A DNA stretch of 64,000 nucleotides from an uncultured Cytophagales bacterium (GTDB lineage Bacteria; Bacteroidota; Bacteroidia; Cytophagales; Thermoflexibacteraceae). The position numbers and the translations under genes were made by a program. Below the pieces are notes generated by a model. That model was not told where the DNA came from. It was given only the letters and a program-made list of their open reading frames with translations, and searched no databases. The DNA lies in the NCBI GenBank assembly GCA_938039675.1, contig CALHUI010000014.1, positions 124,001-188,000 of the forward strand, given 5' to 3'. Positions 32,651 through 53,338 of the stretch are shown one piece after another (the first letter of the stretch is position 1; each line of letters starts with the position of its first letter).

Positions 32651-34897
32651 ATGATTAGGCAATTACGGCGACTTTTTTTAGTCGCATGGATTTGTTTTAT
32701 ATCGGCAAATGCAACAGCACAATCTGCAAGTGAATTGTGGCTTAGCGGCGGATGGGGGTTGCTCAATTCCGAACAGTCCAATCGACAATATGTAAAGTCA
32801 GGCATCCAGTTTTCAGGTGGTTACAACCGCTTTTTAGGCAAATCGCAAAAACCTTTCAGCGTAGGATTGCAAACACGCGTACAACACAGCATAGGCGGCA
32901 GAAGCGCAACAAACATTGAGCCGCTGTTTCAAGTTGCTGGCGTAGCAGATTTATCGGCAGCATTGAATCAACCTTACAGCCAATCGCTCACTTTCTTGGG
33001 TGTCGGCCCGTTGGCACGAGTGCAAATAGGTAAATCGCTGCAATTGACTGCCGGCGTTGTTGGTGGATTGAACCTGTTCAAGCAAGATTCTTTTGCTATT
33101 GTGCAACGTTTTAGCGTCGGGCAAGGCGGGGCATTAGTAGTACCTACTACGAAAGATGTATTGCGACAAAGCCCGGTAAGTTCATCGACACTCGGATGGT
33201 TGCCAACTGCCCGCATTAACTGGCTACTTAACCAGCGGATAAGTTTATGGGCGGAGGCTAACTACTTCCTATCAAATTACACAACAAGGCAGCGCGAGCT
33301 TATACCTTTGGGAGGGCCCGACGCAAGCAGCGTGTATAAAATTGAGCAACTACTCCGCAGCAATGAATTTCGAACGACGGAACGTACTTTTTCGCTCAAT
33401 CACATGCAGTTCAATGCAGGCTTAGGCATTCATTTAGGTAAAATAAGAACCCAAACCCCAGATGCAATACCCGAAAAACCGCAACTTTCTCCTCGCCCTG
33501 CCGCAACGGTCAAATTTGACAAAAAACCGACCCAAACCGATAAACCCAGACCTTCTGACCAATCAAGTGATGCACCTGCTTGGCATACCTACGAACACAA
33601 GCCGCTGCCTGTCGGTACTGACATAATCGCCCAATCAGCCGTAGCGGATATACTCATCCCTCAACAACAACAGCAACAAAACGACTATCGCATTATATTG
33701 GTCGCTCCGTTGAAACAGCATTTTGAGGACATCCGCAACCTGAAAGAGTTCAGGTGGAAAATTGCAGGGCAGCCCCGCACCAAACCTGAGTTTATGCTAG
33801 AAATCATTGCCGAGCAACGAATGCCCAACGGGCGAACCACTCCCACGGTGATTTATCGCAAAGAAGGATTAGGCGCTGCCGAGTCGTGGCGCACCGATGA
33901 GAATTTTTACAGAGCCATTGACAACAGCAAACAACTGCAATTTACGTGGCGCGTGATTGATAGGGCTAATAAAAAAGACTCAGAAACGGGTTCATTTTCA
34001 AGGAGCAACTGTAACTTCAATTTGGGGATAACTGTTAACTCTGTTCGTTGCTTAGGTTTCCAAAACGGAAAGTTTCGCTATGAGATATGTTTTAGTTCCA
34101 AGTATGAAGCCATCGACCCGCAAACGCCGCTTACTTTCAATCAGGTGGGCTCAGGGTTATTTATCATGCAAACCAATGGTTCGTCGTTTCCTCCGGGCAC
34201 TATCACCAATCTAATAACGCCTGTGCTTAATACTCAAGGGCCTCCTTATCCCAATACACAAAACTATTGCCTGAGTTTTGACGCACCGACTTCCGTTACG
34301 GACGTACTGCTTATCTTCCAAGGCGATAACCTGTTAACGTATGCCAATTGCAGACCGGGTGTTGAAGACACCATCAGATTGGAGGCTTGCCAATGCAAAG
34401 ATTGCGACAACTTTAACGCTCGGTTTAACTTAACCGGTGTTTCGCAAACCTCTCCTTCCGCGCCATTCAAACTGACAGGCAATTTTGTAACCAATGCCAA
34501 CGTGCGCCGCATTAACATGACCATTACGCACATGAGTTTTACGGATGCACAACAATGTAGCAACGGTGTTACCAATCACCAAACAGCCGGCGTATTTATC
34601 AACAATGCTCCGTTCCTTTCTACGGTCAATAGTCAGGCTGTAACCCTATTGGAAGCCGCTCCGGCAAATGGCACCGCCAAATCCTTAACGGTGCAATGGA
34701 ATGTGCCGACCATGAACATCCCCGTTCAACTTCACTTGGGTTTACCCGTGCCTTTCGGCAATGCCTCTGCCGACTGCTGCCCGATAAATTATAAAGTTTG
34801 CTTTAAAGGAGAATTTTTCATTGACGACGGCAACGGCAATTTCTGTACCCGCTGCGTGCGTGAGTTCTGTGTAGAATTTTCCAACGTCTCATTCTAA
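32651..34897 (+). CDS. Secreted barrel-like protein with Cys-rich C-terminal modules
   Basis: A 748-aa protein I do not recognise. The signal peptide is 'LFLVAWICFISANATAQS'. Residues 25-270 look like a small outer-membrane barrel ('SELWLSGGWGLLNSEQSNRQ', 'GVGPLARVQIGKSLQLTAGV'). A Pro/Lys/Thr linker (270-325) is followed by a beta-rich part with 'VADILIPQQQQQQNDYRIIL'. From about 450 come cysteine-bearing modules: 'VRCLGFQNGKFRYEICF', 'LEACQCKDCDNFNARF', and at the end 'CCPINYKVCFKGEFF' and 'CTRCVREFCVEFSN'. No type-A or type-B T9SS sorting domain is visible. The 962-aa gene follows 22 bp later, so the two are probably co-expressed and may form one surface assembly. Confidence 0.72.
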   Translation: MIRQLRRLFLVAWICFISANATAQSASELWLSGGWGLLNSEQSNRQYVKSGIQFSGGYNRFLGKSQKPFSVGLQTRVQHSIGGRSATNIEPLFQVAGVADLSAALNQPYSQSLTFLGVGPLARVQIGKSLQLTAGVVGGLNLFKQDSFAIVQRFSVGQGGALVVPTTKDVLRQSPVSSSTLGWLPTARINWLLNQRISLWAEANYFLSNYTTRQRELIPLGGPDASSVYKIEQLLRSNEFRTTERTFSLNHMQFNAGLGIHLGKIRTQTPDAIPEKPQLSPRPAATVKFDKKPTQTDKPRPSDQSSDAPAWHTYEHKPLPVGTDIIAQSAVADILIPQQQQQQNDYRIILVAPLKQHFEDIRNLKEFRWKIAGQPRTKPEFMLEIIAEQRMPNGRTTPTVIYRKEGLGAAESWRTDENFYRAIDNSKQLQFTWRVIDRANKKDSETGSFSRSNCNFNLGITVNSVRCLGFQNGKFRYEICFSSKYEAIDPQTPLTFNQVGSGLFIMQTNGSSFPPGTITNLITPVLNTQGPPYPNTQNYCLSFDAPTSVTDVLLIFQGDNLLTYANCRPGVEDTIRLEACQCKDCDNFNARFNLTGVSQTSPSAPFKLTGNFVTNANVRRINMTITHMSFTDAQQCSNGVTNHQTAGVFINNAPFLSTVNSQAVTLLEAAPANGTAKSLTVQWNVPTMNIPVQLHLGLPVPFGNASADCCPINYKVCFKGEFFIDDGNGNFCTRCVREFCVEFSNVSF

Positions 34898-34919
34898 ACA
34901 CTTAAACTAAGACTTGACC

Positions 34920-37808
34920 ATGAAAAAGATATTATTTTTTGTTTGTTTCCTCTGTTTGTGCGCCATTCAGCCCATACAGGCGCAACTTTCTGCCAATTTA
35001 TCGCAAAACGGCTCTTCAAATATTACTCAGGTTTATTCGGGTACGCCCTTCGATTTAGTTTTGACCAATTTAGAATGCAACTGCCCCGACCAAACGCTGA
35101 CCATTACTTATAACAATGTGGTAACTTTTCAAGGCAACAGTCTGCTGCCTCTCACCACACCGCTCCCCGGCACCTTGCAGGTGGATTTTGCCGCCCTGCA
35201 AAACAGTAATAATTGCAACGGGGCTCTGCAATACACGCTGCCGTTCATATTTCCGGCAGGTATTACCTGCGACGCTGCAATCGCAACATTCAACATACAA
35301 TACAGCGGTTGCGGGAACAATCACAACCAGAAGCTTGAAGTAAGAGCACGCACGCTCAACCTGTGGAGAGCCTCTAAGGAACCGGTAGAGCCAACAGCCT
35401 GTGCCGGAGAAAAAATCTTGTGGCGCGTGAAAATATTTAAAGATTTCACCAATGTAACCGCCATTAACGGCCTTATGCCGAGCAACTCCAATAATATCGG
35501 GACTTACCACTTGGTATTAACCGATTTTGCAGACCAAATAACGACTACTTGTACAGACGTTACCAACAATTTGGGTACTTTTTCCGCCGGTATTATCGGT
35601 TATACACCGCCTATTTATTTTAATCCTAACACACCCAATACACCTTTTATTTCGTTGCCTTCAAATAGCAGCCAATCTGTCAATCTTAACAATACTCAGC
35701 CCATCACAGCAAACACAATATACATGTTCATTTGTACGCAGGCTTTTACCTGTGACAACAGTTGTACGCTAAACAACTCTATCCAATTGAACGGCGTTTT
35801 GGGCAGCCTGAACAATCCCTGTGGCAACATTACGCTAAATGCGCAAAGCCGGCAACCCGCGCAGGTGAATTATTGCGGCTCTACATTAACCCAGCAAGGT
35901 GCTTTAACCAAATCCATACAATTTCAACCCTTTACCCAACTTTCCCCCGGTTGTAGCGGCAGATATATTATCAAATTCACAAATACCGGCAATGTACCCA
36001 TCACACAACTGACCATTACCGACCCTTTCCCGACAGGTCTGACTCATATCAACCACGTCATTTATCCTAATAATGCGGGCGTGCTGAACACCAATAGTTC
36101 GCCTTTTCAGTTCAACATGACGCAAAGCAGCTTAGCACCCAACGCAAGCATCTTGATTGAAATCAATTTTCAGGTAAATACGGCAGTCAGCCCCGGCACG
36201 CTGATAACCAACTGTGCCACAGCCAATTTTAACGCAAACATTCCCATTAATCCGGGCAATGATTTTTGCAACAATCCTGTGCAAACCGTTGTCAGCAATA
36301 CCGCGCAGGGCTGTGTCTCATTCAACGTAAAACAACCTTCACCGCTTGTTTCTATTAAAAAATGCGTTACAGGGCCATCTGCCGTAGCTGTCGGAGGGCA
36401 ACAAAGTTTTGCTATCTTCATTGCCAACAACGGCGACCAAGCCTTTAACGGTACACTTACCGACCCGATAGCAGCACACAACCTAAGCAACGTTCAAAAC
36501 GTGCAGGTTTTTGCAGGCACCGTGCCAAATATTCAATCAGTGAATTATAACAGTTGTAATTTCCTCAACAGTCCGACGGTGCAAAATCACCTGCAACTAT
36601 TAACCGCTCCTACCAACGGGTTTAGCGTTACCACATCGGTAAGCAACACGGCACTGACTGCCAACCTGACCATACCGCCCAACTGCAACTTTATGCAAAC
36701 CAACGTGGTGATGATTACTTTCACGGCTACGCAAATGCCGGCATTAATGGGTACTAACCTTGCTACGGTTACGCTTGGTTCAGGACAGACTATCAGTAGC
36801 CAAGTAACTTACAACATTTTGAGAATGGCGGCAATAAACGGCGAAAAACAGGTCAATTCGGGCATTAACCAAAGTAATTGGAGCAATTCGCAGATAGTGC
36901 CGGTAGGAGGAACGTTCCAGTATCGCATCAGAATCAGCAACGTGGGCAGTTTGCCGCTGTCCGAAATTCAGGTGCATGACAACCTGCCAAGTTGCGTTCA
37001 AATGGTAAATCCTGCCAATATTACGGTGGTAGATGCTAACAACAACACGCTTACAAACGCATTGCCGGTCAACTTCGGTGGAAGCGTATTTGTACTGCCT
37101 ACAAATTTCACCTTAAATCCGGGTGAGAATGTATTCTTGGTGTTTAATGTACAGCGCACAGTTGCTACACCCGAACCTTGCGTAAACTGTGCAACCGTAA
37201 GTGCCGTTTCGTCACTTTCTGCTAACTTACTGACATGGAATGCCGGCTGCGCTAATATTCTTCAACCTTTGAATTGCCAAGATGCCGCCTGCGAAGAACT
37301 GAGAGTAGAAATTAAGCCTATCGGAATTCTTACTAACACGGGTAACAGTCAGCCGATGTTATTGCAACTGAGCCACCCTGTCCCGATTCAGGAGCTTTCC
37401 GTTCACGTGGACGATTTCTTTATCCAATACCTCCCGGGCGACTGCAAACCTGCCAATATTGGCAATGCCGTAGGGCATATTGCTACGGCAAGCTCTCTAA
37501 TCGGCGGAGCAAACGGTTTGCTGCTCCAACAGCCGCATTCGCCTATGAATAACAACTTGACATGGATGGGTAACCCTACGCCGGTAAATACGGGCTTCGG
37601 TATTCTTGGAGGCATCCGATTCAATCTTTCTCTGCCTGATATTCTCAACCTGAAATGTTGTGAGGGTAGAATGAATATCTGTTTCACAGTGCGGATTAAA
37701 GACGTAAACTGTGTAGTTTGCGAAAGAAGGATATGTAAAGAGCTGAAATTTCCCAATGCGGTCATTGTAACACCATCGCCGTTGCCAAGCATCAATCAAA
37801 AGCAATAA
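34920..37808 (+). CDS. Secreted DUF11-repeat protein with Cys-rich C-terminal module
   Basis: A 962-aa protein; the ATG at 34920 is used instead of the TTG two codons earlier. The signal peptide is 'ILFFVCFLCLCAIQPIQAQ'. Three DUF11-like Ig repeats are visible near 343 ('GRYIIKFTNTGNVPITQLTI'), 473 ('SFAIFIANNGDQAFNGTLTD') and 640 ('FQYRIRISNVGSLPLSEIQV'). The region 790-960 is different: 'CCEGRMNICFTVRIKDVN' and 'CVVCERRICKELKFPN' parallel the end of the upstream 748-aa protein. DUF11 proteins are generally extracellular fibres or stalks. No T9SS sorting domain is visible. A terminator follows 15 bp later. Confidence 0.78.
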   Translation: MKKILFFVCFLCLCAIQPIQAQLSANLSQNGSSNITQVYSGTPFDLVLTNLECNCPDQTLTITYNNVVTFQGNSLLPLTTPLPGTLQVDFAALQNSNNCNGALQYTLPFIFPAGITCDAAIATFNIQYSGCGNNHNQKLEVRARTLNLWRASKEPVEPTACAGEKILWRVKIFKDFTNVTAINGLMPSNSNNIGTYHLVLTDFADQITTTCTDVTNNLGTFSAGIIGYTPPIYFNPNTPNTPFISLPSNSSQSVNLNNTQPITANTIYMFICTQAFTCDNSCTLNNSIQLNGVLGSLNNPCGNITLNAQSRQPAQVNYCGSTLTQQGALTKSIQFQPFTQLSPGCSGRYIIKFTNTGNVPITQLTITDPFPTGLTHINHVIYPNNAGVLNTNSSPFQFNMTQSSLAPNASILIEINFQVNTAVSPGTLITNCATANFNANIPINPGNDFCNNPVQTVVSNTAQGCVSFNVKQPSPLVSIKKCVTGPSAVAVGGQQSFAIFIANNGDQAFNGTLTDPIAAHNLSNVQNVQVFAGTVPNIQSVNYNSCNFLNSPTVQNHLQLLTAPTNGFSVTTSVSNTALTANLTIPPNCNFMQTNVVMITFTATQMPALMGTNLATVTLGSGQTISSQVTYNILRMAAINGEKQVNSGINQSNWSNSQIVPVGGTFQYRIRISNVGSLPLSEIQVHDNLPSCVQMVNPANITVVDANNNTLTNALPVNFGGSVFVLPTNFTLNPGENVFLVFNVQRTVATPEPCVNCATVSAVSSLSANLLTWNAGCANILQPLNCQDAACEELRVEIKPIGILTNTGNSQPMLLQLSHPVPIQELSVHVDDFFIQYLPGDCKPANIGNAVGHIATASSLIGGANGLLLQQPHSPMNNNLTWMGNPTPVNTGFGILGGIRFNLSLPDILNLKCCEGRMNICFTVRIKDVNCVVCERRICKELKFPNAVIVTPSPLPSINQKQ

Positions 37809-37822
37809 CCCGCGCTTTATTG

Positions 37823-37861
37823 AAAAAACTCTGACGGGCTTTAAGTCTGTCAGGGTTTTTT
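37823..37861. terminator. Bidirectional terminator between the 962-aa gene and sprA
   Basis: Hairpin AAACTCTGAC / GTCAGGGTTT (one G-T pair) with T-runs on both strands, between convergent genes. Confidence 0.82.
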
Positions 37862-37895
37862 GTAGCCTGATTAAGCATCGCAGTATTTCAATTAC

Positions 37896-40800
37896 TTACA
37901 ACTGCGCTAAATTGAAGCGCACTTGGAAACCAAAGGCTGTATTTGTTCGGCGGAAAGAGTTCGAAACCAGTGGATTGTTAATCTGACGGTCAAAGTATAA
38001 TTGCACGCTTACCTGCTGATTTACCACGTAGTTGATAGTAGGCCGCAATTGCAAATTGTAGTTGCCCATAGTGGCAATACTTTCCTGCACCCCGTCCTGA
38101 ATACGTCTTTGCAGCGTGCGCGTATCGCGGATGGTGAACGACATACGGAAGGTCAGGTCGTTTTTCAGCACCGTGTAGCCGCCGTTAATCTTAAACGGAA
38201 TTTTCAGATTAGCTTTTGTGAACCCCACATCCACTGTAACATCATCGTTGCGCATTTCGCTGATTTGTGCATTGTTCAGTGTCAGTCCCAAAGTACGGCG
38301 TTTGTTGTAGTTCACCGTGATGGTCATATTTTGGGTCGTGCGCATTGTTACACCCAGCAGCGGCGCAAAGTTTTCGTCAATCGTTACCTGATTCATTACG
38401 AAAATAGGTACAATAGCCTGTGTAACAGGGTCAATAATAGGGAACGGCAAGGCATGTTCGCGGATATCTAACCGCAGAAAATCGGGGCCGTAGAGTAGCG
38501 AAGAAGTAAAGTTGCCTACGTTATAGTCGTTTTTGTAGCTGTGCTTAATCTGAATCTGACGGAAATTTTGCTTGAAAAACGACAATTGTGTCAGGCCGGT
38601 GTAGGTCAGTTGCCAGTTGGGCAATGGAATTTGTGGAAACGCTGAAAGCGCCTGATTGTTGGCATCTCTGCCTGCGTAAGCGGCCAAAAATGCAGGAATC
38701 AGCACATCTTGTCCGTTTAAATCAAAGTTGGCACCGGGTACTTCTCTTTCCATGCGCTGGCGGATGATGTTGCGATTTCTGATAAAATTATCAAATACAG
38801 GCGACTGATTCGCTGAGTTATCACCGCGAAAAGCCGTGCGAAGCGTGTTAAAACTGATGCTGTACTGCCCATTGCGCATAGGTGACTGCGACTCATGCAC
38901 CCCCAGTGCTGTATTGAAGCGGAATACTTCGCTGTAACTGCCGGTAGTAATTTTGCGCCAATCCATGCGCAGGTCAAAGTCTTTGACGGGTGAAATATTG
39001 GCAATAATCCCCAGATTGCTGTTGCGCCCCTGCATGAATGAGTTGTTCTGTAAAGGACTGATAGACAGTGCATTGCCTTGTGCCAAACGGTCTTTGATGC
39101 CGCTGTCCTGACTACCGAATACGAAGCCCCAACCGGGATTATTAAAGTCTTTGTCCATACCCAGAAAGCGGGGTACAGTGAGCACGCCCGGAATCATGGT
39201 ATTGCGGGTAACATCGTAGTTCAGTTGCACATTCTGAATAGAGGTCAGCAGGCGCGCAATGGTAGCAGGCGCACCTGTTGGTTTCAGAGGAACAGATTTT
39301 TTGGCGGCTTGTCGGGCTTCCACTGCGGCTATTTTGGCTTGCAAACGCTTAATTCGTGCGTCAATTTTTGCCAGTTTCTTCTCCAATCGGGCAGAATCCA
39401 TTGGCTTTACTTTGGCTGCCTGACGAATCTGGCGGATGCTGTCTTTCAGGCGCAGCAACTCCGAAGGGTTCATCTTGATTTTCCATGCCGCAATCTTATT
39501 GCGGTAGCGGCTGATGCGTTTACCGTAACGCACCGAATCAAACTGTATTTCCAGAATTTTACCTTCGTAGCGGTCTATTTTGGCCTGATAGCGCAATTGG
39601 CGCGGGGTGAGGGTGGTTGGCAATTGCCCTCCCATTGGCATAATGCTGTTGGCAGTTGGCTTGGCATTTGTCAATTTATTTTTGCGTTTATTATTGCGCT
39701 CTATGCGTGCCTGCAAGCGGCGCTTTTTGGCTTCACCCCACTGCTCTGCCTGCCCGTTTTGCCGGTTAGAGCTTAACAGCGCCTTCAATACACGGCTTTT
39801 GTTGTAGAGTGTTCGCATATTCATCTGCCCTGCTACCCGCAGTGCACTGTTGTTTTGCATGGTATTGCCTAAGGTATCGGCTATGCCCACTGCACCTGCT
39901 GTCCATGTATAGCCTGCCTGATAGCGAGCATTGGCGTTGAGCCAGTCGGTAGCAGGAAACATTTTGAAGGGTACTTCGTACTGCACGCCTACGGTTTGCA
40001 CATAGTTCTTCATCCGCCCTAAACGGAAGATGTTATTAATTACCGAATCGCGGCGGGTGATATTTCGGCGCGGGTCAATCAGTTCGTTGTTGATTTCGCC
40101 CGCCGGTTCGTCTATAATACTGAACGCCTGTGCGTTATAGTCCAGTCCCAGCGATTTTGTCAGGCTCCAACGCACATTGTAAGTGCGATTGAAGGTAAAT
40201 GCCTTTTCATACAGCGGTGCTACGCCAACTGTATTGAGGTCTGAATTGCGCAGTTGTGTTTTAATAAACCGTCTGTCCACATCGCCTGTGATGGTAACAC
40301 TGGCAGGCATGGGGTTAATGTTGAAATCTTTCAGGAATTTGAGATAGGGTGCATCCAGTAACACCACATTTTTGAAAGGCTCTAACGGCGTGGCTGAAGT
40401 ATTGTTAAAGTTGTATTGCAAGCCGACTTTGGTAAACCGCTCAATGTATTCGGCTGTTCGAATGTTAGTATTGCGTGCATCGGCAAAAGAGAAGTTCAGT
40501 GTCAGATTCTCCACATCCCACAAATGAGATTTAGCCCCTTGCTTTACTTTGTTTTTGCGCACGTTGGTAAAGTTTAGGCTGCGCCGAATCATGTCTTCCC
40601 GCACCAAGTTGCGCAAACCGATAGCCTCGGCACCGGGGCGCGTTTTCAAGGCAAGTTCCAGCGGCATATCTGGGTCTAAGGGGTTAAAATACGGTGTCAT
40701 CAGGCGGCGTTCGTAGCCTACAAACATGGGCAGGTTGAGGCCGATGCGCTCCAAACCGAACTTGTGCAGTTGTATGGTAGAGGCCAAATCATACTCTAAG

Positions 40801-43800: not shown

Positions 43801-45569
43801 CCTTCCTGCAAATTGGGGTTGTCAATCCCTGTGGCATCGTCGCGGTAAATTATGCGCAACTGAAAATTAGTGCGCTCCAATTGTTGTGTTTGCAGGGAGT
43901 AAATATTTTTCATCATCAAATCCCAAGAGGGAATGTCTTTCCGAATGGTAGAAGGTTTGAGCATTTTCATGATGATGATATCGTTGTTAGGGCGACTCTG
44001 GTAGTTCTCGGTCAGCTCGCCCACCCGATAAACCTGACCATTGTAAGTATATTCAAAAGATACGGCCAAAATTTCATCATTACGCAGTGGTGTAATGAGT
44101 GAGATATAGCCCAAATTGGGATGCAATACAAACTCATTAGGCTGCAATCGGCGTGCGCCGCGCAGCATTTCATAATCAGAGCCTTTAACCAGCCCGAAGG
44201 TCTGTTCCATAACGCTCGTCAGGCGGTCGGGGTCTCGCACGGCAGAATTAGCTTCCAGATTGGCAAACAAGCGGTTAGCAGCATTGCCGGCAGGCCCTCG
44301 CCCTGTTGCCGGCGCAATATTGGGATTATTAGCACGAAAGGGTTCTCCTTCGCCCAAATCTAACAGAGCTACAATGTTTCGCAGTGTTTGCGTGTTGTTG
44401 TTGCGGTTAGTAACGTACACCTCTACACGCGTTACCACTACCCCCGATGTAATAACAGGAATAGTACGCAACGAGGGCTCGTAGTTATGACGGAAAAACT
44501 GCCCCAAAAAAAAGTGGCGGTTTTCGTCATAAGAATCGGCGCGGATTTCAAAAGGGCGCACTTGTGCCCCGCCCCGAATGCGCATAGATTCTACTGTTCC
44601 GCGCGACTGTGAGGCGATGGCATTAATCCACAACTTGCCAAAGCGCAAGCGGGTTTTGATGCCAAACAGGTTCTGCGCACCGGTAATCAGGCCATTGCTA
44701 ACCGGCATACTAACGTTTCCTACTTTGACCTCTTGTATGATGTCTTCTTCCTGTGCGGTGTAGCCTGTCAGGAACGTATTTTCAAATTGGAAAGAACTCT
44801 TGGTATCCCAGTTAAAATTCAGGTTGAGCTTAGTGCCTATTTTTCCGACCATGTTCAACTGAATTTGCTGGTCAAAAAAGAGGCCGCCGTTGCGCTGCTG
44901 CCGCAAAAGAATCTGCGGGTTTTCGATGCGCTGCCACTTGCCGCCCAAATCCAGCAGGATAGTGCCATTGGGCTGGATGTCTAAGTTGCTGCCACCGAAC
45001 AGCCTGTCGGCCAAAGGCGGCAATTTAATCAGCGGAATCAGTCGCCCCGACTTTACGGGGTCTGTACCATCGGCAGCCCGCGAAAGGGTGCGGTAGTAAT
45101 CGCGTAAAAGTTCCGTATTGCGTGCCCGCTCTACCTGTCCGAAAGGGGCGCGTGCAGGCGTGCGATAATTGAAGTTGCCGATTTGCTGGCGCAGATTATA
45201 AAACTGCCCGTCAGGGTCTAATTCTATTTTCGGATTAAAGGGTTTGCCCAACAGCGGCGAGGTGCGCTGGCGGTAAGGTGTGAAAAAACCAGAGTAGCGC
45301 CCCATTTCGCGGTCGCTCAGTGAAAAGGGGCGAGTAGCTGCTTTTCGGTCTATACCGCTGCCCAAACGGGTCGTATCCGGCTCTTCCAAGTCGGTAGTAT
45401 CCGAGGATAATGAAATATCGGCAGTCGGGTTGGCAGGTCTTGTCTGGGTAGGTCGGGTGGTTGGGTTGCGCCCCGGTTTTCCTTGCGCACAGGCTTCTGC
45501 TATCCAGCCCGGCACGCAAAAGAACAACAGACAACAAAAACCTGCGACAGAACTATTTTTAAACATCAT
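37896..45569 (-). CDS. sprA: T9SS outer-membrane translocon SprA (Sov)
   Basis: A 2557-aa protein, close to the usual 2400-2600 aa of SprA/Sov, which forms the very large outer-membrane barrel through which T9SS substrates leave the cell. The signal peptide 'SSVAGFCCLLFFCVPGWIAE' is followed by a Thr/Pro-rich stretch. Family blocks include 'LDLGGKWQRIENPQILLRQQ', 'VGNVSMPVSNGLITGAQNLF', 'GTDGGTSFVDDFEGAEVPYEL' and the C-terminal barrel strands ending 'AFGFQVRFNLAQL'. Residues about 1927-2100 form a strongly basic, Lys/Arg/Ala-rich insertion ('ARLEKKLAKIDARIKRLQAK') likely to be coiled coil, flanked by barrel strands. It is 118 bp after gatB on the same strand. In Flavobacterium SprA is needed for gliding and secretion. 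Confidence 0.95.
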   Translation of the reverse strand: MMFKNSSVAGFCCLLFFCVPGWIAEACAQGKPGRNPTTRPTQTRPANPTADISLSSDTTDLEEPDTTRLGSGIDRKAATRPFSLSDREMGRYSGFFTPYRQRTSPLLGKPFNPKIELDPDGQFYNLRQQIGNFNYRTPARAPFGQVERARNTELLRDYYRTLSRAADGTDPVKSGRLIPLIKLPPLADRLFGGSNLDIQPNGTILLDLGGKWQRIENPQILLRQQRNGGLFFDQQIQLNMVGKIGTKLNLNFNWDTKSSFQFENTFLTGYTAQEEDIIQEVKVGNVSMPVSNGLITGAQNLFGIKTRLRFGKLWINAIASQSRGTVESMRIRGGAQVRPFEIRADSYDENRHFFLGQFFRHNYEPSLRTIPVITSGVVVTRVEVYVTNRNNNTQTLRNIVALLDLGEGEPFRANNPNIAPATGRGPAGNAANRLFANLEANSAVRDPDRLTSVMEQTFGLVKGSDYEMLRGARRLQPNEFVLHPNLGYISLITPLRNDEILAVSFEYTYNGQVYRVGELTENYQSRPNNDIIIMKMLKPSTIRKDIPSWDLMMKNIYSLQTQQLERTNFQLRIIYRDDATGIDNPNLQEGANLKDIPLVQVMRLDLLNPNNDPQPDGNIDFIEGITVDSRNGRVIFPVLEPFGSHLERQFIPQLEQQLINKYVFNELYRGTRADAILLTSKSKFFLKGSFQSVSSSEIRLNGINIARNSVQVRAGGTMLTEGIDYTVDYQMGTVRITNTGILSSGKEIVIQYERQDLFNFQTRNLVGTDLEYRFSNDFRVHTTLMHMNERPNISRVSIGAEPTRNTLWGFGLNYRKESRRLTRMVDKLPLVSTKAPSTIAFSGDFAQIIPGANQLIGTDGGTSFVDDFEGAEVPYELGRQPQSWALGSTPNQFRPVGRNNPLEYAYRRARMAWYTVDNTVFFNRGLGQAPPSNISQQDRCNHYVRPIAFDEIFRGRDPQMLNNPDLTMDLAFYPQERGMYNYNPNLTPDGRLPNPRQNFGAITKGITYDIDFDNINIQYIEFWLLDPFIRGVNGQIITNVNGRNVGINNTTGGKLYFNLGSISEDYIPDGRHGFENGLPTNDTDRDTVRTDWGVVTRKPYLTNAFAAEPGARARQDVGMDGLNDEGERQFFRSYLNQVRSRVSGAAYAAIERDPSADNFNYYLSDEATTQDLKVFDRYKFFNGMEGNSPEGAGTQSNSFLPDNEDLNRDNTLNDIDAYYEYEIDLRPGKLDNNPYVVDRVVTSSRTSCNEDVTWYLFRIPIRDFTRKVGDINDFKSIRFIRTYMTDWEQPVVLRMAHFQLVGAQWRPFLESLEQPGLQVPREPAQTTFTVSSVNIEENGPEKTESGRTPYVLPPGFVRDLDFASNTQARRNEQSLRLCVDNLTDRDARAVYKNYVVDMVNYERIKMFVHVSPFNRLKPLNDNDINVFVRFGTDFTENYYEVQMPSQVTPPGTTTAEGIWPEENSLDIAIMDLINAKAERNRLGLSLRLPYITQIGRFQVTIVGNPDLSSVQTIMIGIRNPETTDGRPHSACIWVNELRVTGFNRRSGWAAQARLNATLADLAVVNASIGYSSPFFGGIQDKISQRTREHSLEYDLASTIQLHKFGLERIGLNLPMFVGYERRLMTPYFNPLDPDMPLELALKTRPGAEAIGLRNLVREDMIRRSLNFTNVRKNKVKQGAKSHLWDVENLTLNFSFADARNTNIRTAEYIERFTKVGLQYNFNNTSATPLEPFKNVVLLDAPYLKFLKDFNINPMPASVTITGDVDRRFIKTQLRNSDLNTVGVAPLYEKAFTFNRTYNVRWSLTKSLGLDYNAQAFSIIDEPAGEINNELIDPRRNITRRDSVINNIFRLGRMKNYVQTVGVQYEVPFKMFPATDWLNANARYQAGYTWTAGAVGIADTLGNTMQNNSALRVAGQMNMRTLYNKSRVLKALLSSNRQNGQAEQWGEAKKRRLQARIERNNKRKNKLTNAKPTANSIMPMGGQLPTTLTPRQLRYQAKIDRYEGKILEIQFDSVRYGKRISRYRNKIAAWKIKMNPSELLRLKDSIRQIRQAAKVKPMDSARLEKKLAKIDARIKRLQAKIAAVEARQAAKKSVPLKPTGAPATIARLLTSIQNVQLNYDVTRNTMIPGVLTVPRFLGMDKDFNNPGWGFVFGSQDSGIKDRLAQGNALSISPLQNNSFMQGRNSNLGIIANISPVKDFDLRMDWRKITTGSYSEVFRFNTALGVHESQSPMRNGQYSISFNTLRTAFRGDNSANQSPVFDNFIRNRNIIRQRMEREVPGANFDLNGQDVLIPAFLAAYAGRDANNQALSAFPQIPLPNWQLTYTGLTQLSFFKQNFRQIQIKHSYKNDYNVGNFTSSLLYGPDFLRLDIREHALPFPIIDPVTQAIVPIFVMNQVTIDENFAPLLGVTMRTTQNMTITVNYNKRRTLGLTLNNAQISEMRNDDVTVDVGFTKANLKIPFKINGGYTVLKNDLTFRMSFTIRDTRTLQRRIQDGVQESIATMGNYNLQLRPTINYVVNQQVSVQLYFDRQINNPLVSNSFRRTNTAFGFQVRFNLAQL

Positions 45570-45687
45570 TCCCTGATTATTGTACCAATCGGGTAAATTT
45601 GAGTCATAGGCGATTATACACAGATTACAAATTAAGCAAAAAAAGTATGGACTTTACAAGTGTAAGAAGTTGCCGACGGCATAATAA

Positions 45688-47169
45688 TTACGACTCCAAC
45701 ACCTGCCGCAACAGCTCGCCTGCTTTTTTGGGGTCTATCTTAACGGAGGAAGCCTTCATTACTTCACCCATAAACATGCCCAACAAATTTTTCTTGCCCT
45801 TTCTGTAAGCCGCGGCTTCGTTTGGAAATTTCGCCACAATTTCCCGAATGAATGGCAATAGTGTATCAGTGTTGCTTTCCTGCAATAAATTCAATCGGCG
45901 CGCGGTGGCCTCTGCAACTGCTTCGGGCTGATTGACAAGGGCTGCAAAGAGTTCTTTGGAGGCTACCGAAAAACTGAGCGCTCCCTGCTCGGTCAGTTCT
46001 ACGGCATCGGCCAACTGACGAACGGTAAGCGGCATTTCGGCTGCTGTTTTTCCTGTTTCGTTCAGGTAGGATTTCACAGGCCCCATCAGCCAGTTAGAAA
46101 CCGCCTTGTAGTGCTTGGTAAGAGCGCAGACCTGCTCGAAATACACGGCCATTTCGCGCTCATCGGTCAGCACGACGGAATCGTATTCCGGCAATTGATA
46201 TACTTGCTGGAACTTTTCTACCAGTTGCTCGGGCAACTCAGGCATTGCCGCACGAATGCGCGACAGGTCTTCATCCGTTACTACAAAAGGTGCTAAGTCC
46301 GGCTCTGGAAAATAGCGATAGTCGTTGAGTTCCTCTTTGGTGCGCATGGCAAAAGTACGCCCGCTGTTTACATCGAACAGGCGCGTTTCGGAAGTTATTT
46401 TTGCGCCGCTTTCCAACACTTGGACTTGGCGCACAAACTCGTACTCAATGGCACGCTGTACGTTGCGCATCGAGTTCATGTTTTTTATCTCTACTTTTTG
46501 TCCCAGTTTAGTATCGCCCTTTTTGCGAACGGAAACGTTGGCATCGCAGCGCATAGAACCTTCTTCCATATTGCCGTCGCAAATACCTAAGTAGCGCACA
46601 ATGCGGCGCACAACGGCCAGATAGGCGGCAGCTTCTTCCGGCTGCCGAATATCGGGTTCGGTAACAATTTCAATCAGCGGCGTTCCGGCGCGGTTCAGGT
46701 CTATGAGGGTGTAATCAGCATCGGCAGGATGGATAGACTTGCCTGCATCTTCCTCCAAATGGATGCGATTCAGGCGAATGCGCTTTACCCAATAGTCTTT
46801 GCTGTTGCCTTTGCGGGCTTTTACATCCAAATAACCGCCTTTGCAGATGGGGGTTTTGTCTTGTGTGGTTTGAAAACCTTTGGGTAGGTCGGGATAAAAA
46901 TAGTTTTTCCGGTCAAAGATATTGTAGCGCGAAATTTCGCAATGGCAGGCAAGCCCCATTTTAATGGCCATTTCTACCACTGCTTCGTTCAACATGGGCA
47001 AAGTGCCCGGATGCCCCAGTGTAATCACACTTACGTTCGTGTTGGGTGCATCACCGAACCGGTTGGCATCTGCGGCAAAAATTTTACTCTGTGCGCTCAA
47101 CTGCGCATGTACTTCCAATCCGACAACTAATTCGTATTGGGATAAAATAGCTTCTGAAACTGTCTTCAT
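45688..47169 (-). CDS. gatB: Aspartyl/glutamyl-tRNA amidotransferase subunit B
   Basis: A 493-aa subunit of GatCAB, which converts Glu-tRNA(Gln) and Asp-tRNA(Asn) to the amide forms. N-terminal 'ELVVGLEVHAQLSAQSKIF' (residues 12-30) and 'RKNYFYPDLPKGFQTTQ' are classic GatB blocks; the tail domain 'AAYRKGKKNLLGMFMGEVMK' is intact. gatA and gatC are not linked. The overlapping plus-strand ORFs are shadows. The tRNA-Glu gene 3 kb away is functionally related but probably unlinked in expression. Confidence 0.96.
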   Translation of the reverse strand: MKTVSEAILSQYELVVGLEVHAQLSAQSKIFAADANRFGDAPNTNVSVITLGHPGTLPMLNEAVVEMAIKMGLACHCEISRYNIFDRKNYFYPDLPKGFQTTQDKTPICKGGYLDVKARKGNSKDYWVKRIRLNRIHLEEDAGKSIHPADADYTLIDLNRAGTPLIEIVTEPDIRQPEEAAAYLAVVRRIVRYLGICDGNMEEGSMRCDANVSVRKKGDTKLGQKVEIKNMNSMRNVQRAIEYEFVRQVQVLESGAKITSETRLFDVNSGRTFAMRTKEELNDYRYFPEPDLAPFVVTDEDLSRIRAAMPELPEQLVEKFQQVYQLPEYDSVVLTDEREMAVYFEQVCALTKHYKAVSNWLMGPVKSYLNETGKTAAEMPLTVRQLADAVELTEQGALSFSVASKELFAALVNQPEAVAEATARRLNLLQESNTDTLLPFIREIVAKFPNEAAAYRKGKKNLLGMFMGEVMKASSVKIDPKKAGELLRQVLES

Positions 47170-47490
47170 AGTTTTTAATGCCTGCGAATTTAGGGAAAAG
47201 CGCGGATACTCCTCAGACAGATGCCGATTATTAGCTAAAACAATTCACACGCAATAATGAAAAACATACACATGATAGCTTATCTGACAAAACATGCAAT
47301 AATTGAATTTTAAGTACTTAAAAACAAGGCTTTCATTAACAAATAATCATCAACAGTTAATCAATCGAATTAGAAAAACGGCGAATGCGCTGCAAATCAT
47401 ACAAGGTAGTTGTTAAAAACCTTTGCAGCATATATACGAATTTGCATTTTTTGGCGTTTTTTAATAAAATATATAACTATTCTAAGGTAT
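47170..47490. other. 321-bp AT-rich intergenic gap
   Basis: Divergent upstream region of gatB and the 862-aa T9SS substrate. No gene supported; the first 27 codons of the track ORF at 47410 are treated as untranslated. A TAAATTCG lies before gatB, one base off the -7 consensus. Confidence 0.5.
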
Positions 47491-50079
47491 ATGAAAATTG
47501 CTCTACCGCTTACAGTCCTGCTGATTTTCTTTTACTTGCTTTTATATGCTGAAGGTACGCCTCAGATGCGCCCTACATATAACGATGGCGGTTTCTTGCA
47601 CCTGTTAGACCCTGCCACTACAAACGACTTTGCTGCCTATGGTGCTACCGATGAGCGCCGGATTTATTTTCGTATCAGAAATACCAATGAGAGAGTTTAT
47701 TTTGGGTTTGGTCGCTATAAAACCACCAATATGGGGAATAATGCCAACATTAACCCTGTAAATCAGCCACTGCCTTTGCCTACCGCAGCCGCTAACCCGC
47801 AACGCGAGTTGCGTTTCCGTATTCTCGACCCGAGCGGTGCAGTTGTATGGCCTGAACAAGCCATTCCCGTAAGCGGTCAGGGATTTATAGGCGCGGAAAA
47901 TCTGGCTGACTATAATCGTTGTGTAGCAGGTCCTGCACAGTTAGTAGGTACCAGTGGCTACTATGCCTATGTTTTCACACCTGCTACAACAGGCGATTTT
48001 CGCATTGAATTTGAAACTTACAATATAGCAACCAATACTGTTACTGTGCCTGCAAACAATCGCAAGGCTATGCTCCAACTATTTGACCTGACCATTGCAA
48101 CGGGCGTAGGAGGTTTTACGGTTACAACACAAAACGCAACTACGGGCGCAGTTACCGCCGTAACGGGCAGCGCAACGGCTACAGCCATTCCCGGTCGTTT
48201 GTGGTCGCGGGCATGGAGCCTTAGTACGGGCAACGGAAATGTACCCTATAACGGTCGTGCTTACCCATATGCCAATGACGGCATTGTAACGGAAATCAAT
48301 TTTAACGGCATGCAACCTTTTGGGTTTGTCATTAGTTGTAACCGTGATGGTATTAACACTATTGCTGCTACGCCTGCCAACAATTTCATTGTTAATCGCC
48401 GTTCGCGTTGGGGATTAAGTGCCCCTGTGGCACTGCATACGCCGCTTTATCGCATTTTTTTACAAAATCCCGACATTAATGAATTCCCCAACGGTATTAT
48501 TGGATGCTTACATTCTGCTTCGGCAAAACAATGCGATCAGAACTCACCTTATTGTATTAACATAACAGCACAAGCCAACGGAGAGGTAGAGGTTATAATA
48601 GATTTGCATCCGGCAATACCTGACGGCATCTATACAGCAGGTACTCGAGATGTGCGCCTAATGACTGAGTTTAACACTCCGGGGGTGCCAGAAACTAAAT
48701 GTGTTCCATGGGATGGCTTAGACGGTCTGGGAGTGCAAGTGCCTACCGGTAATATTTCCATTATCGTCAATTTTCAGGCGGGCAGAACTAATTTGCCTAT
48801 TTATGACATAGAAGACCACCCGAATGGCTTCGTAGTTCGCTTGGTGCGCCCACTCACCAATGTTTGCGGCAACCCTTTGACTCCTCCCAAACTCTACTGG
48901 GATGATACTAACGGAACAATCAACATGCCGACAGGTACTGCCATTGATGGACATATTAACCTGGCAGGCTGTACCTCTTCACCTGTACCGCCGGCTTATC
49001 CTGCTGCTATTCCTTCCGGAACAACCGGTTGCCATCGCTTTACGGGCAGAGGGGCCAACGGCAATTCCGAAACCATCAACACATGGTGGTACGTAGCCGA
49101 AGACAAATTGACCGTTCCGTTTTTCAACGATAATTCGTTGTTCGATATCAGCGGCCTGTTCCCGAATGCAAACCCTTGCATATTTACCGATGGGTCGTTT
49201 CTTGATGTAAATGTAGTTTACAGCGATGCTAAATTTTCATTACCTGCACTGTTTTTTACCATAACCCCCACGTTGAGTGGTTACAGCTTTGCCAGCCCGA
49301 TAACCAACAATCCGGTAGTTGCTAATGCTGCCGCCAACGCCGCTAATGGGCCACAGGTAGTAAGCGATATACTAATAGGTGGCTCACCTGTCAAACGACA
49401 AGTTACTTTGCGTTATAAAGTTGATACCGGCGGAGGCACTGTGAACGATATGGGCTATAATCTGACAGTTACCACCAATGCCTGCGGAAACAACCAGAGT
49501 ACGGCGAGTGTACTTTGCAGCCAGCTAATGCCTGTTGAACTAGCAGAGTTCAGTGGCAGTAACAAAGTTAATATCAATTTGCTCACATGGACAACCGCAT
49601 CAGAAAAGAACAACCAAGGATTTGGCATAGAACGCAGCATGGACGGCATTAATTTTAGAGAAATTGCTTTTGTCGAGGGCGTAGGCAACAGCAACCGCCT
49701 GCAGCGATACAGCTACGAAGACCACTTGGAAGCACCGCAAACATTCTATTACCGCTTGCGTCAGGTAGATTATGACGGTATATTTACTTATTCCAAAATA
49801 ATTGTGCTCACAGTAGATGCCACAAGCAGCAACTATGTAGAAGTTTACTGCGACGGAAGCAGTGCCGATATTGCCATTCGCACCCAATTTGATAAGCAAG
49901 ACAAAGCTACACTTACTATCTACTCGCTGACAGGTGCTGTCATCAGCCGTCAGAGATTAGAAATTCCCGTCGGCAATTATTTGCAACGCATCTGTCTCCC
50001 ACAAACAGCCAAAGGCGTTTACATATTAGAAATCAACACTTTGGGCGGCACGTGGAAACGGCATAAGATTGTGCACTAA
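47491..50079 (+). CDS. Large secreted protein with T9SS-type C-terminal region
   Basis: An 862-aa protein. The ATG at 47491 is preferred over the track start because it opens a signal peptide, 'IALPLTVLLIFFYLLLYAEG'. The N-terminal 650 residues are beta-rich with no named domain; they include 'ERRIYFRIRNTNERVYFGFG' and clustered Asn, Gly and Pro. From about 679 comes the T9SS-substrate linker 'LMPVELAEFSGSNKVNINLL' and 'FYYRLRQVDYDGIFTYSKII', also seen in the 1311-aa protein. The last 80 residues resemble a type-A sorting domain ('LTIYSLTGAVISRQRL', 'AKGVYILEINTLGG') but lack the usual YPNP motif. It is probably exported by SprA. Confidence 0.8.
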   Translation: MKIALPLTVLLIFFYLLLYAEGTPQMRPTYNDGGFLHLLDPATTNDFAAYGATDERRIYFRIRNTNERVYFGFGRYKTTNMGNNANINPVNQPLPLPTAAANPQRELRFRILDPSGAVVWPEQAIPVSGQGFIGAENLADYNRCVAGPAQLVGTSGYYAYVFTPATTGDFRIEFETYNIATNTVTVPANNRKAMLQLFDLTIATGVGGFTVTTQNATTGAVTAVTGSATATAIPGRLWSRAWSLSTGNGNVPYNGRAYPYANDGIVTEINFNGMQPFGFVISCNRDGINTIAATPANNFIVNRRSRWGLSAPVALHTPLYRIFLQNPDINEFPNGIIGCLHSASAKQCDQNSPYCINITAQANGEVEVIIDLHPAIPDGIYTAGTRDVRLMTEFNTPGVPETKCVPWDGLDGLGVQVPTGNISIIVNFQAGRTNLPIYDIEDHPNGFVVRLVRPLTNVCGNPLTPPKLYWDDTNGTINMPTGTAIDGHINLAGCTSSPVPPAYPAAIPSGTTGCHRFTGRGANGNSETINTWWYVAEDKLTVPFFNDNSLFDISGLFPNANPCIFTDGSFLDVNVVYSDAKFSLPALFFTITPTLSGYSFASPITNNPVVANAAANAANGPQVVSDILIGGSPVKRQVTLRYKVDTGGGTVNDMGYNLTVTTNACGNNQSTASVLCSQLMPVELAEFSGSNKVNINLLTWTTASEKNNQGFGIERSMDGINFREIAFVEGVGNSNRLQRYSYEDHLEAPQTFYYRLRQVDYDGIFTYSKIIVLTVDATSSNYVEVYCDGSSADIAIRTQFDKQDKATLTIYSLTGAVISRQRLEIPVGNYLQRICLPQTAKGVYILEINTLGGTWKRHKIVH

Positions 50080-50108
50080 AAGATTCTTCAAAAAAATGCG
50101 GCAAAGTA

Positions 50109-50139
50109 TTGCAAGATAAAATTAGCCGCCCTACCTTTG
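50109..50139 (+). promoter_or_regulatory. Putative tRNA-Glu promoter (-33 TTG, -7 TACCTTTG)
   Basis: TTG at 50109-50111 and TACCTTTG at 50132-50139 are spaced by 20 bp, matching the Bacteroidota housekeeping promoter. It lies 19 bp before the mature tRNA 5' end. This is the best-formed promoter in the window. Confidence 0.6.
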
Positions 50140-50158
50140 TGCCACATTTAAAATAAAT

Positions 50159-50233
50159 GCACCGTTCGTCTAGGGGTTAGGACGTATCCCTTTCACGGAT
50201 AAAACACGGGTTCGATTCCCGTACGGTGTACCA
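50159..50233 (+). tRNA. tRNA-Glu (anticodon UUC)
   Basis: A complete cloverleaf with encoded CCA. The acceptor stem GCACCGT/ACGGTGT pairs fully with a G-U first pair, the D region is GTCTAGGGGTTAGGAC, the anticodon stem TATCC/GGATA encloses loop CTTTCAC with TTC at 50192-50194, and the T arm is ACGGG-TTCGATT-CCCGT. Discriminator A at 50230, CCA at 50231-50233. Confidence 0.96.
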
Positions 50234-50241
50234 AAGTTTTC

Positions 50242-50277
50242 AAAGGTGCCGGAAAAATCAGCGCCTTTTCTTGTTTT
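50242..50277 (+). terminator. Terminator of tRNA-Glu
   Basis: AAAGGTGC / GCGCCTTT hairpin (one G-U pair, 11-nt loop) followed by TTCTTGTTTTT, starting 9 bp after the CCA. Confidence 0.8.
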
Positions 50278-50360
50278 TCCCCAAGCTAAGGAATGCTAAT
50301 CTGATTTACATTTTTAGTTGCCCTACATCCTCCATTTGCCTTACAGCAGCCCCCGCAAAA

Positions 50361-50388
50361 TAAAAAAGCCCTGCGGAGTATACAGGGC
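50361..50388 (-). terminator. Minus-strand terminator without an obvious gene
   Basis: GCCCTG / CAGGGC hairpin (9-nt loop) followed on the minus strand by six T residues. No supported protein gene reads into it; it may end a small RNA. Confidence 0.65.
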
Positions 50389-50599
50389 GAAAATAACTGC
50401 GGCATATATCAGGTATCGTACCGACCATGAAAGTGCCGATATGCATACCTTATGAGTAGAACAAATGATACCACCCCAAGGCATGGTAAGCATCTTGCCA
50501 ATTACCGACAAGCTGTTCGGAAACATCCGAAACTTTTAGAGCAATGCAGCACAGACGCCACCACCCAGCCCGCCGCAACTCGAGTTGTTTTAACAGCCA

Positions 50600-50646
50600 A
50601 AAAAACGGACAAAGACCCTTTAAAAGCGAGGTGTTGTCCGTTTTTT
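50600..50646. terminator. Perfect 13-bp bidirectional terminator
   Basis: AAAAAACGGACAA and its exact complement, with A and T runs at the flanks. It lies 107 bp beyond the stop of the 297-aa minus-strand gene, which it most likely serves. Confidence 0.8.
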
Positions 50647-50752
50647 AAAGCCCTTATTACAAGATAAGCATTTGATAATCAGCAAAACGCATCAAGCAAT
50701 AAAAGTTAGTCAATCCGGTTTTGTAATCAAACCACAACGGAAGAACCAAAGA

Positions 50753-51646
50753 TTAGCGCGTAACTTTCTGATTAGCAAAAGTTTGCTCTTTAATACAACC
50801 ATTTTCAAACTCTACTAACACTTTCAGGTCAAATGTAAACTCTTCATTACAACCCTGTACTCTGGGCGGCAAGTAGAACATTGCATTCCAGAGTTTATCA
50901 CCTTTTCCGGTAGCTGAAAAGTCACGCCCGCCCGGATAAAGCAGTTGTGCACTGCTCATGCTAATCCATTTATAATCGGCAGGTATTTTTTGAAAGTGTT
51001 CGTGCATCAGAGGTGTCAAATTCCAGTCTAAAACTTTATCGGGCTGACCGAGGCACTTGATAATCCTTTTGACATTGCTAACCTCATAAGTGATACCTCT
51101 TACTTTGTCATTGCCCGGCCCGGTTTGTAATCCGGCTATAAAGCTGACGGTTTGTTCATTCCGTAATGAGGCTAAAGCATCTGTTACTACTGATGCCATA
51201 ACAGGTGCAAATGATACGGTTTGATTACAATTTACACTGGCACAAGGTGTCAAATTAAAGTTGCTGACAGCACGGCAAACTTCATTTTGTCCATTAGTAG
51301 GGGCTAATCGCAAAGTGAGTGAAGAAGCAACGGCAGCTTCATCGTAGGTAAACGATATGTTGGCTTGGTTGTTCTGTAGCGGTACTTGGCTTACGCTGAT
51401 TGTTCCACCGCTCATGGAAGCAATATTAACAGCAACAAGTGGAGGCGTAGTGGTGGGGGGATTTACTTTAAAAGTAAATGAAATCGTAAACTTACGACTG
51501 GGAGCAGATTGCGTACAAACAGACTGAAAGTTTTCCACAATGTAACATGGTGTAGTAACTTGCGAGTAAAGGGGGGCAATAACCAGCAACAGGCAACAGA
51601 TAAAAACAACCTGCCACCGTTGCATTTGTTGTTTGAGAGTATCCAT
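50753..51646 (-). CDS. Secreted protein with Cys-rich module, unknown function
   Basis: A 297-aa protein of no named family. The signal peptide is 'WQVVFICCLLLVIAPLYSQ'. The mature part has two beta-rich modules: a first with 'VCTQSAPSRKFTISFTFKVN' through 'EVCRAVSNFNLTPCASVNC', and a second running from 'VRGITYEVSNVKRIIKC' to the end, 'GCNEEFTFDLKVLVEFENGC' then 'IKEQTFANQKVTR'. These parallel by eye the C-terminal modules of the 748-aa and 962-aa proteins. No T9SS sorting domain or lipobox. It is monocistronic. Confidence 0.72.
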   Translation of the reverse strand: MDTLKQQMQRWQVVFICCLLLVIAPLYSQVTTPCYIVENFQSVCTQSAPSRKFTISFTFKVNPPTTTPPLVAVNIASMSGGTISVSQVPLQNNQANISFTYDEAAVASSLTLRLAPTNGQNEVCRAVSNFNLTPCASVNCNQTVSFAPVMASVVTDALASLRNEQTVSFIAGLQTGPGNDKVRGITYEVSNVKRIIKCLGQPDKVLDWNLTPLMHEHFQKIPADYKWISMSSAQLLYPGGRDFSATGKGDKLWNAMFYLPPRVQGCNEEFTFDLKVLVEFENGCIKEQTFANQKVTR

Positions 51647-51974
51647 AAACTCATATTAGGTTGATAATGAAAATAAAGACAAGATACGTGCCAAAATCAG
51701 CCCTATAATGCCCATAGGTGGTTATCAGCGTATTGTTCATACACAGCCGGTTGTACAGGTTGCTTGCCCTGTAATATCTGAATGGCTAATGGAGTTTATA
51801 CATGGTTGAACGTAGCACCGGTAGCGCACTATCGGTTGATTATTCTGCAAAAACCTGATAAATATCGGAATTTATCAGGTTTTTGTACAAACGTAGAGAC
51901 TCAAAGCCGCCTGATTGTTTTTTGTTGAGAGAGAAAATAAATTTTCTTATGCTCTTGTTTAAACAAGAGTTGGT
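51647..51974. other. 328-bp intergenic gap
   Basis: No gene supported. It carries the upstream region of the 297-aa gene, with TATCTTG about 30 bp before the ATG (one T short of the -7 consensus), and the terminator of the saccharopine dehydrogenase-like gene at 51849-51884. An imperfect ACCGGTAG/CTATCGGT stem lies beside it. Confidence 0.5.
51849..51884 (-). terminator. Terminator of the saccharopine dehydrogenase-like gene
   Basis: Perfect 15-bp hairpin AAAAACCTGATAAAT / ATTTATCAGGTTTTT, 6-nt loop. It lies 91 bp after the minus-strand stop. Confidence 0.85.
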
Positions 51975-53324
51975 TTATTCTATTAGCCGCTCTTTTTCGC
52001 GGAAACTGATGCCCATTGCGGAAAGTTCTGCCAGCACGGGCTCATACACACTGCGCACGACCGGAATTTGTACGCCTTTTAACGGCAATTGATTGTTTAA
52101 CAACAGTTTAGCCCCAATACCTAAAGGCAGCCCTACTGTTTTTGCCATGGCTGTATGATGGCTGTCGTCGCCGTAAACTATCAAATCAGACACTATTTCA
52201 AATTTGCCTTCCGCTTTGTGGTACTCGAAGCGATGTTGCAGAATGACCATGTCGCGATCGCCTTCTTCCAGTTTCCATTTTTTCTCCAGCAGGTGTTGCA
52301 GAATTTGGGCGGGTGTGGCGCGTTCCAACCCGATTTTGTCATGACTGAACAAGCCCAACCATTTGATTTTTTCAATCAAATCCGACTTGGGCGTTACGTT
52401 CATCATTTTGGCAAGTTTTTCTTCTACCAAATACATACGGCTGTACTGCAAAAACATATTGACAAACTCGCGATAGGTCATATCGGCAGAGTTCTCAATA
52501 ATGATTTCATCATCGGTAAGCCCTAATTGAACGAACGTATCCCATGCGGCACAGAATCCTTTCCGACGCAGCGTGCCGCGCAGAATGGTCGGTATTTGCC
52601 GCAAACCGTACAACTCCTTGTAAATAATGGAGTCGCGGTTGGGGTAGCCTTCGTAGTCTCCCAAGCCTTCTATAAAAACGTCTTCGGTATGGCTGAACAA
52701 ACGATGATAAGGTACATATTTGACCTGCCCGTTAATCATGTATTTGGCCGTACCTTTGCCTGCCAACACTACGTTGCGCGGATTCCATGTAAACTTATAG
52801 TGCCATGGGTTATTATCGTATTTGGGTGCAACCAAGCCGCCAGCATAGGAACGAAAGGCTGTAATGACGGCATCTTCGGCATGTAAGCGGTCAATAATTT
52901 GCATGGCCGACATGTGGTCTATGCCCGGGTCAAAGCCCAGTTCATTGAGCAGAAGTACGCCCTTTGCCTGTGCTTCCTCGTGCAGCTCACGCATTTCGGG
53001 CGATACGTAGGAGGCAGTCAGCAGCGGTTTGCCAAACTCCACGCAGGCTTTGGCAACGGTCAAATGCGCAGCGGGAGGCAACAGCGAAATAACCACATCT
53101 GCATCCTGTACTACACTGCGGCATTGTTCCTGATTATTTCCATCCAATGCAATAGCTTTGGCAGACGTATCATCACCACCGTTGGCGATAATTTTGGCAT
53201 GTGCCGCTTCTTGTACGGCATCAGCGACGGTAAGCCTGTAGCCTTCGCTTCGGCATAATTTCAACAAATAATGAATCAGAACATCGGAAGAACGCCCTGC
53301 GCCGAGCAAAAGGATATGTTTCAT
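51975..53324 (-). CDS. Saccharopine dehydrogenase family protein (LYS9-like)
   Basis: A 449-aa NAD(P)-dependent enzyme. I start at the ATG ending at 53324, where the Rossmann motif 'HILLLGAGRSSDVLIHYLL' begins; the track adds 11 residues. 'VVISLLPPAAHLTVAKACVE' and 'LLNELGFDPGIDHMSAMQII' are typical of saccharopine reductase, and 'SYAGGLVAPKYDNNPWHYKFTWNPRNVV' is the substrate-domain signature. It may act in lysine degradation or a related polyamine or amino-acid step; no lysine-pathway neighbours are present. Its promoter -7 element is inside the preceding operon's terminator. Confidence 0.9.
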   Translation of the reverse strand: MKHILLLGAGRSSDVLIHYLLKLCRSEGYRLTVADAVQEAAHAKIIANGGDDTSAKAIALDGNNQEQCRSVVQDADVVISLLPPAAHLTVAKACVEFGKPLLTASYVSPEMRELHEEAQAKGVLLLNELGFDPGIDHMSAMQIIDRLHAEDAVITAFRSYAGGLVAPKYDNNPWHYKFTWNPRNVVLAGKGTAKYMINGQVKYVPYHRLFSHTEDVFIEGLGDYEGYPNRDSIIYKELYGLRQIPTILRGTLRRKGFCAAWDTFVQLGLTDDEIIIENSADMTYREFVNMFLQYSRMYLVEEKLAKMMNVTPKSDLIEKIKWLGLFSHDKIGLERATPAQILQHLLEKKWKLEEGDRDMVILQHRFEYHKAEGKFEIVSDLIVYGDDSHHTAMAKTVGLPLGIGAKLLLNNQLPLKGVQIPVVRSVYEPVLAELSAMGISFREKERLIE

Positions 53325-53338
53325 GGTAGGAAAAAAGA

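Follow-up and report, generated by a model that had tools for sequence, protein, structure and literature searches.

Three genes for unnamed secreted proteins lie in the vicinity of sprA in a 64,000-nucleotide stretch of DNA from an uncultured Cytophagales bacterium (the window), and they raise the question of whether their cysteine-bearing C-terminal ends are one domain and, if so, what that domain is for. A first-pass annotation had described the ends of the 748-, 962- and 297-residue products (p748, p962 and p297) as alike and had placed a second, cysteine-bracketed module in p748 and p297; we refer to the tail as module B and to the second module as module A. All three open reading frames were found where that annotation had put them (Table 1). 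Our analysis points to p748 and p962 as an operon-like envelope or surface pair with a disulfide-held, Ig-like module B, and to p297 as a protein that probably carries module A and maybe a diverged module B, a reading to which we assign a probability of about 0.55. Orthologues of p748 (86%) and p962 are present in G006, and those of p297 in G006, G007 and G008. p297 was found in four species of one genus of the host family, two of which also have p748 with p962.

Table 1. Positions in the window of the three genes and of the modules assigned to their products.
Feature	Position	Strand	Residues	Description
p748	32651..34897	+	748 aa	ORF; signal peptide, possible N-terminal outer-membrane barrel, linker, FN3-like region (by eye only), module A, module B
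Module A of p748	34004..34393	+	452-581	Cys-bracketed, ending in LEACQCKDC; aligned with p748-type relatives
Module B of p748	34394..34894	+	582-748	Common C-terminal domain; jackknife HMM
p962	34920..37808	+	962 aa	Signal peptide, DUF11/DUF7507-type repeats, C-terminal module B
Module B of p962	37275..37748	+	about 786-943	Jackknife HMM, AlphaFold2
p297	50753..51646	-		ORF; signal peptide, module A-like half, C-terminal half where module B would sit
Module A-like half of p297	51227..51559	-	30-140	hhalign, rank among real proteins
C-terminal half of p297	50756..51226	-	141-297	Possible diverged module B

With its DUF11-type repeats, which matched PF24346, PF01345 and TIGR01451 in Pfam and NCBIfam, p962 resembles other DUF11/TIGR01451 repeat proteins, but it differs from them in its separate C-terminal module, which matched nothing in either database. 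The N terminus of p748 gave a sub-threshold match to OMP_b-brl (PF13505; residues 10–129, E = 0.0043, 17.7 bits against a curated cut-off of 28.7), and across the p748-type relatives the N termini showed hardly any likeness. We considered and rejected an FN3-like domain common to p748, the Chitinophagaceae proteins of ~290 residues and the shorter module-B proteins: the likeness was by eye only, and an HMM profile built from the FN3-like domains of the Chitinophagaceae proteins did not detect the FN3-like region of p748.

Compared directly, the tails of p748 and p962 were of borderline similarity, with Smith–Waterman shuffle values of p = 0.001–0.03, varying with the stretch compared. A profile made from the last 437 residues of p748 reached G201, a genome of another order (E = 3e-9), in which a 981-residue p962-like gene starts a few bases beyond a 749-residue p748-like gene. 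The C termini of these two G201 proteins matched each other (BLASTP E = 4.5e-9); p748 matched its distant G201 homologue over residues 340–745 (BLASTP E = 1.3e-15), and p962 of the window matched its G201 counterpart across most of its length (BLASTP E = 6e-58). Because the G201 tails match mutually and the window p962 matches its G201 counterpart, the tail of p748 and p962 is a real homologous module. A jackknife profile built from 20 members, all of them non-Bernardetiaceae from other orders and with the host's taxonomic family excluded, recovered p962 at E = 1.5e-26 and p748 at E = 7e-17; the best of the other open reading frames in the window came at E = 0.57. By these sequence comparisons, the C termini of p748 and p962 are one homologous module of ~165 residues. 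Profile searching was a check that the first-pass annotation had proposed. Profiles of the window tails alone, run against the host's order and GTDB contigs, found matches confined to the genus; searching onwards from G201 brought together a Bacteroidota-wide family for p748 and p962.

Module B was without a Pfam or NCBIfam model in every member tested. A PDB sequence search with its profile returned no match, and searches of a viral fold library and a plasmid collection found nothing useful. The earlier suggestion of an undescribed surface or complex-forming domain is supported for p748 and p962, whose tails belong to a real family modelled in neither library; p297 is, by its tail, only a putative member. 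AlphaFold2, run on the p962 module with a 40-row alignment, gave an all-beta model (pLDDT 82, pTM 0.80), and module B is thus predicted to be a two-layer, Ig-like beta-sandwich. Its Foldseek neighbours were Ig-like pilin, adhesin and cohesin folds (AggA, PsaA and cohesins) at TM scores of about 0.4–0.5, including an AggA match with E = 1.6e-4 and TM 0.52/0.56. The chaperone-usher pilins AggA and PsaA (4ph8, 4f8o), among the best of these neighbours, share the Ig-like beta-sandwich, but at a TM of about 0.45–0.5 and 8–9% identity the likeness is one of fold alone, with no sign of a common function.

In the numbering of the p962 module, Cys61 and Cys150 are present in 40 of 40 rows of the alignment, Cys133 and Cys153 in 39 of 40 each, and Cys10 in all 37 rows that have a letter there. 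Both p748 and p962 carry this near-invariant set (C10, C61, C133, C150 and C153). Cysteines of module B stand at residues 636, 709, 710, 717, 732, 735 and 740 of p748 and at residues 842, 913, 914, 921, 931, 934 and 939 of p962. Other cysteines come and go in pairs: Cys140 and Cys158 occur together in 31 of the 40 rows and are jointly missing from 9, and for Cys108 and Cys148 the corresponding numbers are 8 and 25. These counts ignore kinship, as the rows are related sequences and not independent events. The C140/C158 pair was lost in at least two lineages, and the C108/C148 pair is seen in a single one. As read from strand positions, Cys140 lies opposite Cys158 in the last predicted hairpin (strands 134–147 and 152–163), and the two appear to behave like disulfide partners. 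In the module B alignment A6, this likely bridge is seemingly swapped for C108/C148 in an other-class lineage. We infer that the cysteines of module B form disulfides, with the CxxC possibly binding metal instead.

The module occurs sporadically among genomes. A search of 195 genomes of the host's own order found convincing module B in just two species of the genus; in the order of G201, open-frame members were present in 11 of 399 genomes (G201 counted). The module recurs in Chitinophagales and in several families of other Bacteroidota classes. Weak matches in G440, G030, G690, G454 and G668 were short or contained stops and were taken as noise. The p748/p962 pair is carried by two of the genus's four species and is missing from the rest of the order, a pattern that suggests acquisition or repeated loss; the G+C content of the pair is close to that of the neighbouring genes.

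This wide and patchy distribution, together with the internal and repeated copies of the module in large proteins of other classes, fits an explanation in which module B is a generic Ig-like spacer that is freely shuffled, so that its pairing in p748 and p962 has no functional meaning. We consider that explanation possible but on the unlikely side, given the arrangement and ancestry of the genes. A p748-type gene lies directly ahead of a p962-type gene in seven genomes from two orders (G000, G006, G201, G788, G764, G840 and G874), at a spacing of some 3–22 bp. In a module B tree, the p748-type modules of six genomes formed one clade (100/99) and the p962-type modules of six genomes a separate clade (99/96), and the G874 pair grouped gene for gene with the G954 pair (97/98 and 100/99); some long branches meet in this tree, and its deep joins are left aside. 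Separate clades for the first and second genes indicate that the pair was inherited as a unit. Free shuffling is disfavoured because it would not result in such a tree grouping or in a gene order kept across two orders.

The surroundings of the unit also recur. In G201, G788, G764 and G840 the p748-type gene comes immediately after genes for a sensor kinase of the propeller type and a response regulator of the LytTR type (loci L031, L057, L058 and L059; domains were scanned in L058 of G764 and assigned by likeness in the rest). In other Chitinophagales clusters, a module-B protein of 430–780 residues sits beside a second one of 630–2100 residues, the latter often with PKD repeats, and these are followed by a separate gene for a putative barrel of 576–588 residues and a gene for a protein of ~290 residues. 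Clusters L062–L066 contain this set of two module-B proteins, putative barrel and ~290-residue protein, several without any Pfam match. The ~290-residue neighbour may be a TANFOR protein, an identity that serves as a lead. In Chitinophagaceae-like genomes it gave a sub-threshold match to TANFOR proteins (TIGR02542; PMC7073777; E = 0.019, 14.9 bits where the cut-off is 67), whereas neither p748 nor p962 has a TANFOR match.

As the first-pass annotation had claimed, Pfam and NCBIfam models detected no T9SS type-A or type-B sorting domain in p748, p962 or p297. It had gone on to suggest that the shared tail is possibly a different export or anchoring signal, and a C-terminal module B might act as a functional stand-in for the T9SS C-terminal domain (CTD): the module stands at or near the C terminus of p748, p962 and most Chitinophagales members, in which no CTD was found, and a T9SS CTD is likewise a beta-sandwich domain at the C terminus (PMC4804311). 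Module B is like the type-A sorting domain (TIGR04183/PF18962) in being a C-terminal beta-sandwich on secreted Bacteroidota proteins, but none of p748, p962 and p297 matches that domain in sequence, and module B has invariant cysteines and precedes a real CTD in relatives. In G943, a type-A sorting domain (Por_Secre_tail, E = 1.9e-12) comes after module B, and in other-class genomes the module stands several hundred residues ahead of type-A-like ends (by eye). The module also precedes a beta-lactamase-like domain in one protein (L063:7635-13763), and its sporadic occurrence is unlike that of a general signal. A CTD after module B in relatives favours an extracellular place for the module and disfavours it as an export signal; we therefore regard the stand-in role as quite improbable, and as a general property it is not supported. 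Module B would then face outside.

The beta-lactamase-like protein has 2042 residues and PKD repeats, and its serine beta-lactamase-like domain (PF00144) after module B may stem from the fusion of two genes or from a join made in assembly. The window itself encodes a protein of 882–889 residues between gatB and p297 (47431-50079, + strand) with a C-terminal T9SS type-A domain (TIGR04183, 27.9 bits, above the cut-off), which indicates that the host also uses the ordinary T9SS route.

The claim of a second module common to p748 and p297 proved probable. Pairwise alignment of the two second modules was not significant. In hhalign, a module-A profile made from p748-type relatives scored 34.1 against the p297 family, compared with a mean of 12.1, an SD of 2.1 and a maximum of 18.9 for 100 shuffles, and in a module-A ranking of 211 real proteins the p297 homologues came next after the true members. 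Because HMMER gave only 7–10.5 bits, the first half of p297 is probably, but not certainly, related to module A.

The tail of p297 scored E = 3.4 against the jackknife module B profile and was indistinguishable from shuffles by pairwise alignment, HMM and profile-profile comparison. The claim that the three tails are alike was thus borne out for p748 and p962, and for p297 the scores fall inside the shuffle range. The three tails might look alike just because Cys-rich, beta-rich secreted tails resemble one another. This explanation may hold for p297 but is excluded for p748 and p962 by the jackknife profile and the G201 pair, and for the three tails together we think it extremely improbable. 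For the C-terminal half of p297 we lean towards a diverged member of module B. The hhalign register places 'LPPRVQGCNEEFTFDLKV' of p297 on 'LP...CC....CF.V', the expected order of LP, cysteine and strand, although 5–20% of shuffles score as high. AlphaFold2 with four sequences gave a poor model of p297 (pLDDT 53), with strands at 168–175, 182–198, 251–258, 266–280 and 285–296; the spacing in this low-confidence model resembles that of module B (29–37, 42–57, 118–123, 134–147 and 152–163), and Cys198, Cys266 and Cys284 fall near the counterparts of module B Cys61, Cys133 and Cys150. p297 has plausible counterparts for only four of the five near-invariant module B cysteines, and neither cysteine of the 140/158 pair is present.

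The three genes had also been said to flank sprA. This describes p962, which is adjacent to sprA and convergent with it, but p297 is parted from sprA by gatB and the T9SS cargo gene. Adjacency of p748/p962 and sprA is kept in G006 and absent in G007 and G008, where a gyrase/topoisomerase-A-like gene (by eye) directly follows sprA instead of the pair. Proximity to sprA is therefore not conserved, and we reject a functional linkage on account of the gene after sprA in G007 and G008. p297 lies beside a saccharopine-dehydrogenase-like gene (window 50753-53357) and does so in G006, G007 and G008 too; G007 and G008 are without p748 and p962.

Taken as an envelope or surface pair, p748 and p962 would be the products of one operon-like gene pair. 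p748 would be the membrane-held partner, possibly anchored by its barrel, and p962 an adhesin-like partner with DUF11 repeats that ends in module B; the module would be an extracellular Ig-like domain stabilised by disulfides (or, at the CxxC, possibly by metal). The two proteins may form an assembly, perhaps by way of their related modules, with that of p748 carried on the barrel anchor. A more specific proposal is that module B is a docking domain, by which the operon products pair and the membrane-held partner displays the repeat adhesin, neither having a T9SS sorting domain; this we put forward tentatively and think unlikely. Module B would be a phylum-wide extracellular domain of Bacteroidota that is absent from Pfam and NCBIfam and has a clear cysteine signature, and it marks out what may be a conserved two-gene surface system in distant members of the phylum. 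It also raises a testable question, namely by what route adhesin-like proteins that lack a T9SS sorting domain are exported, and how they are held.
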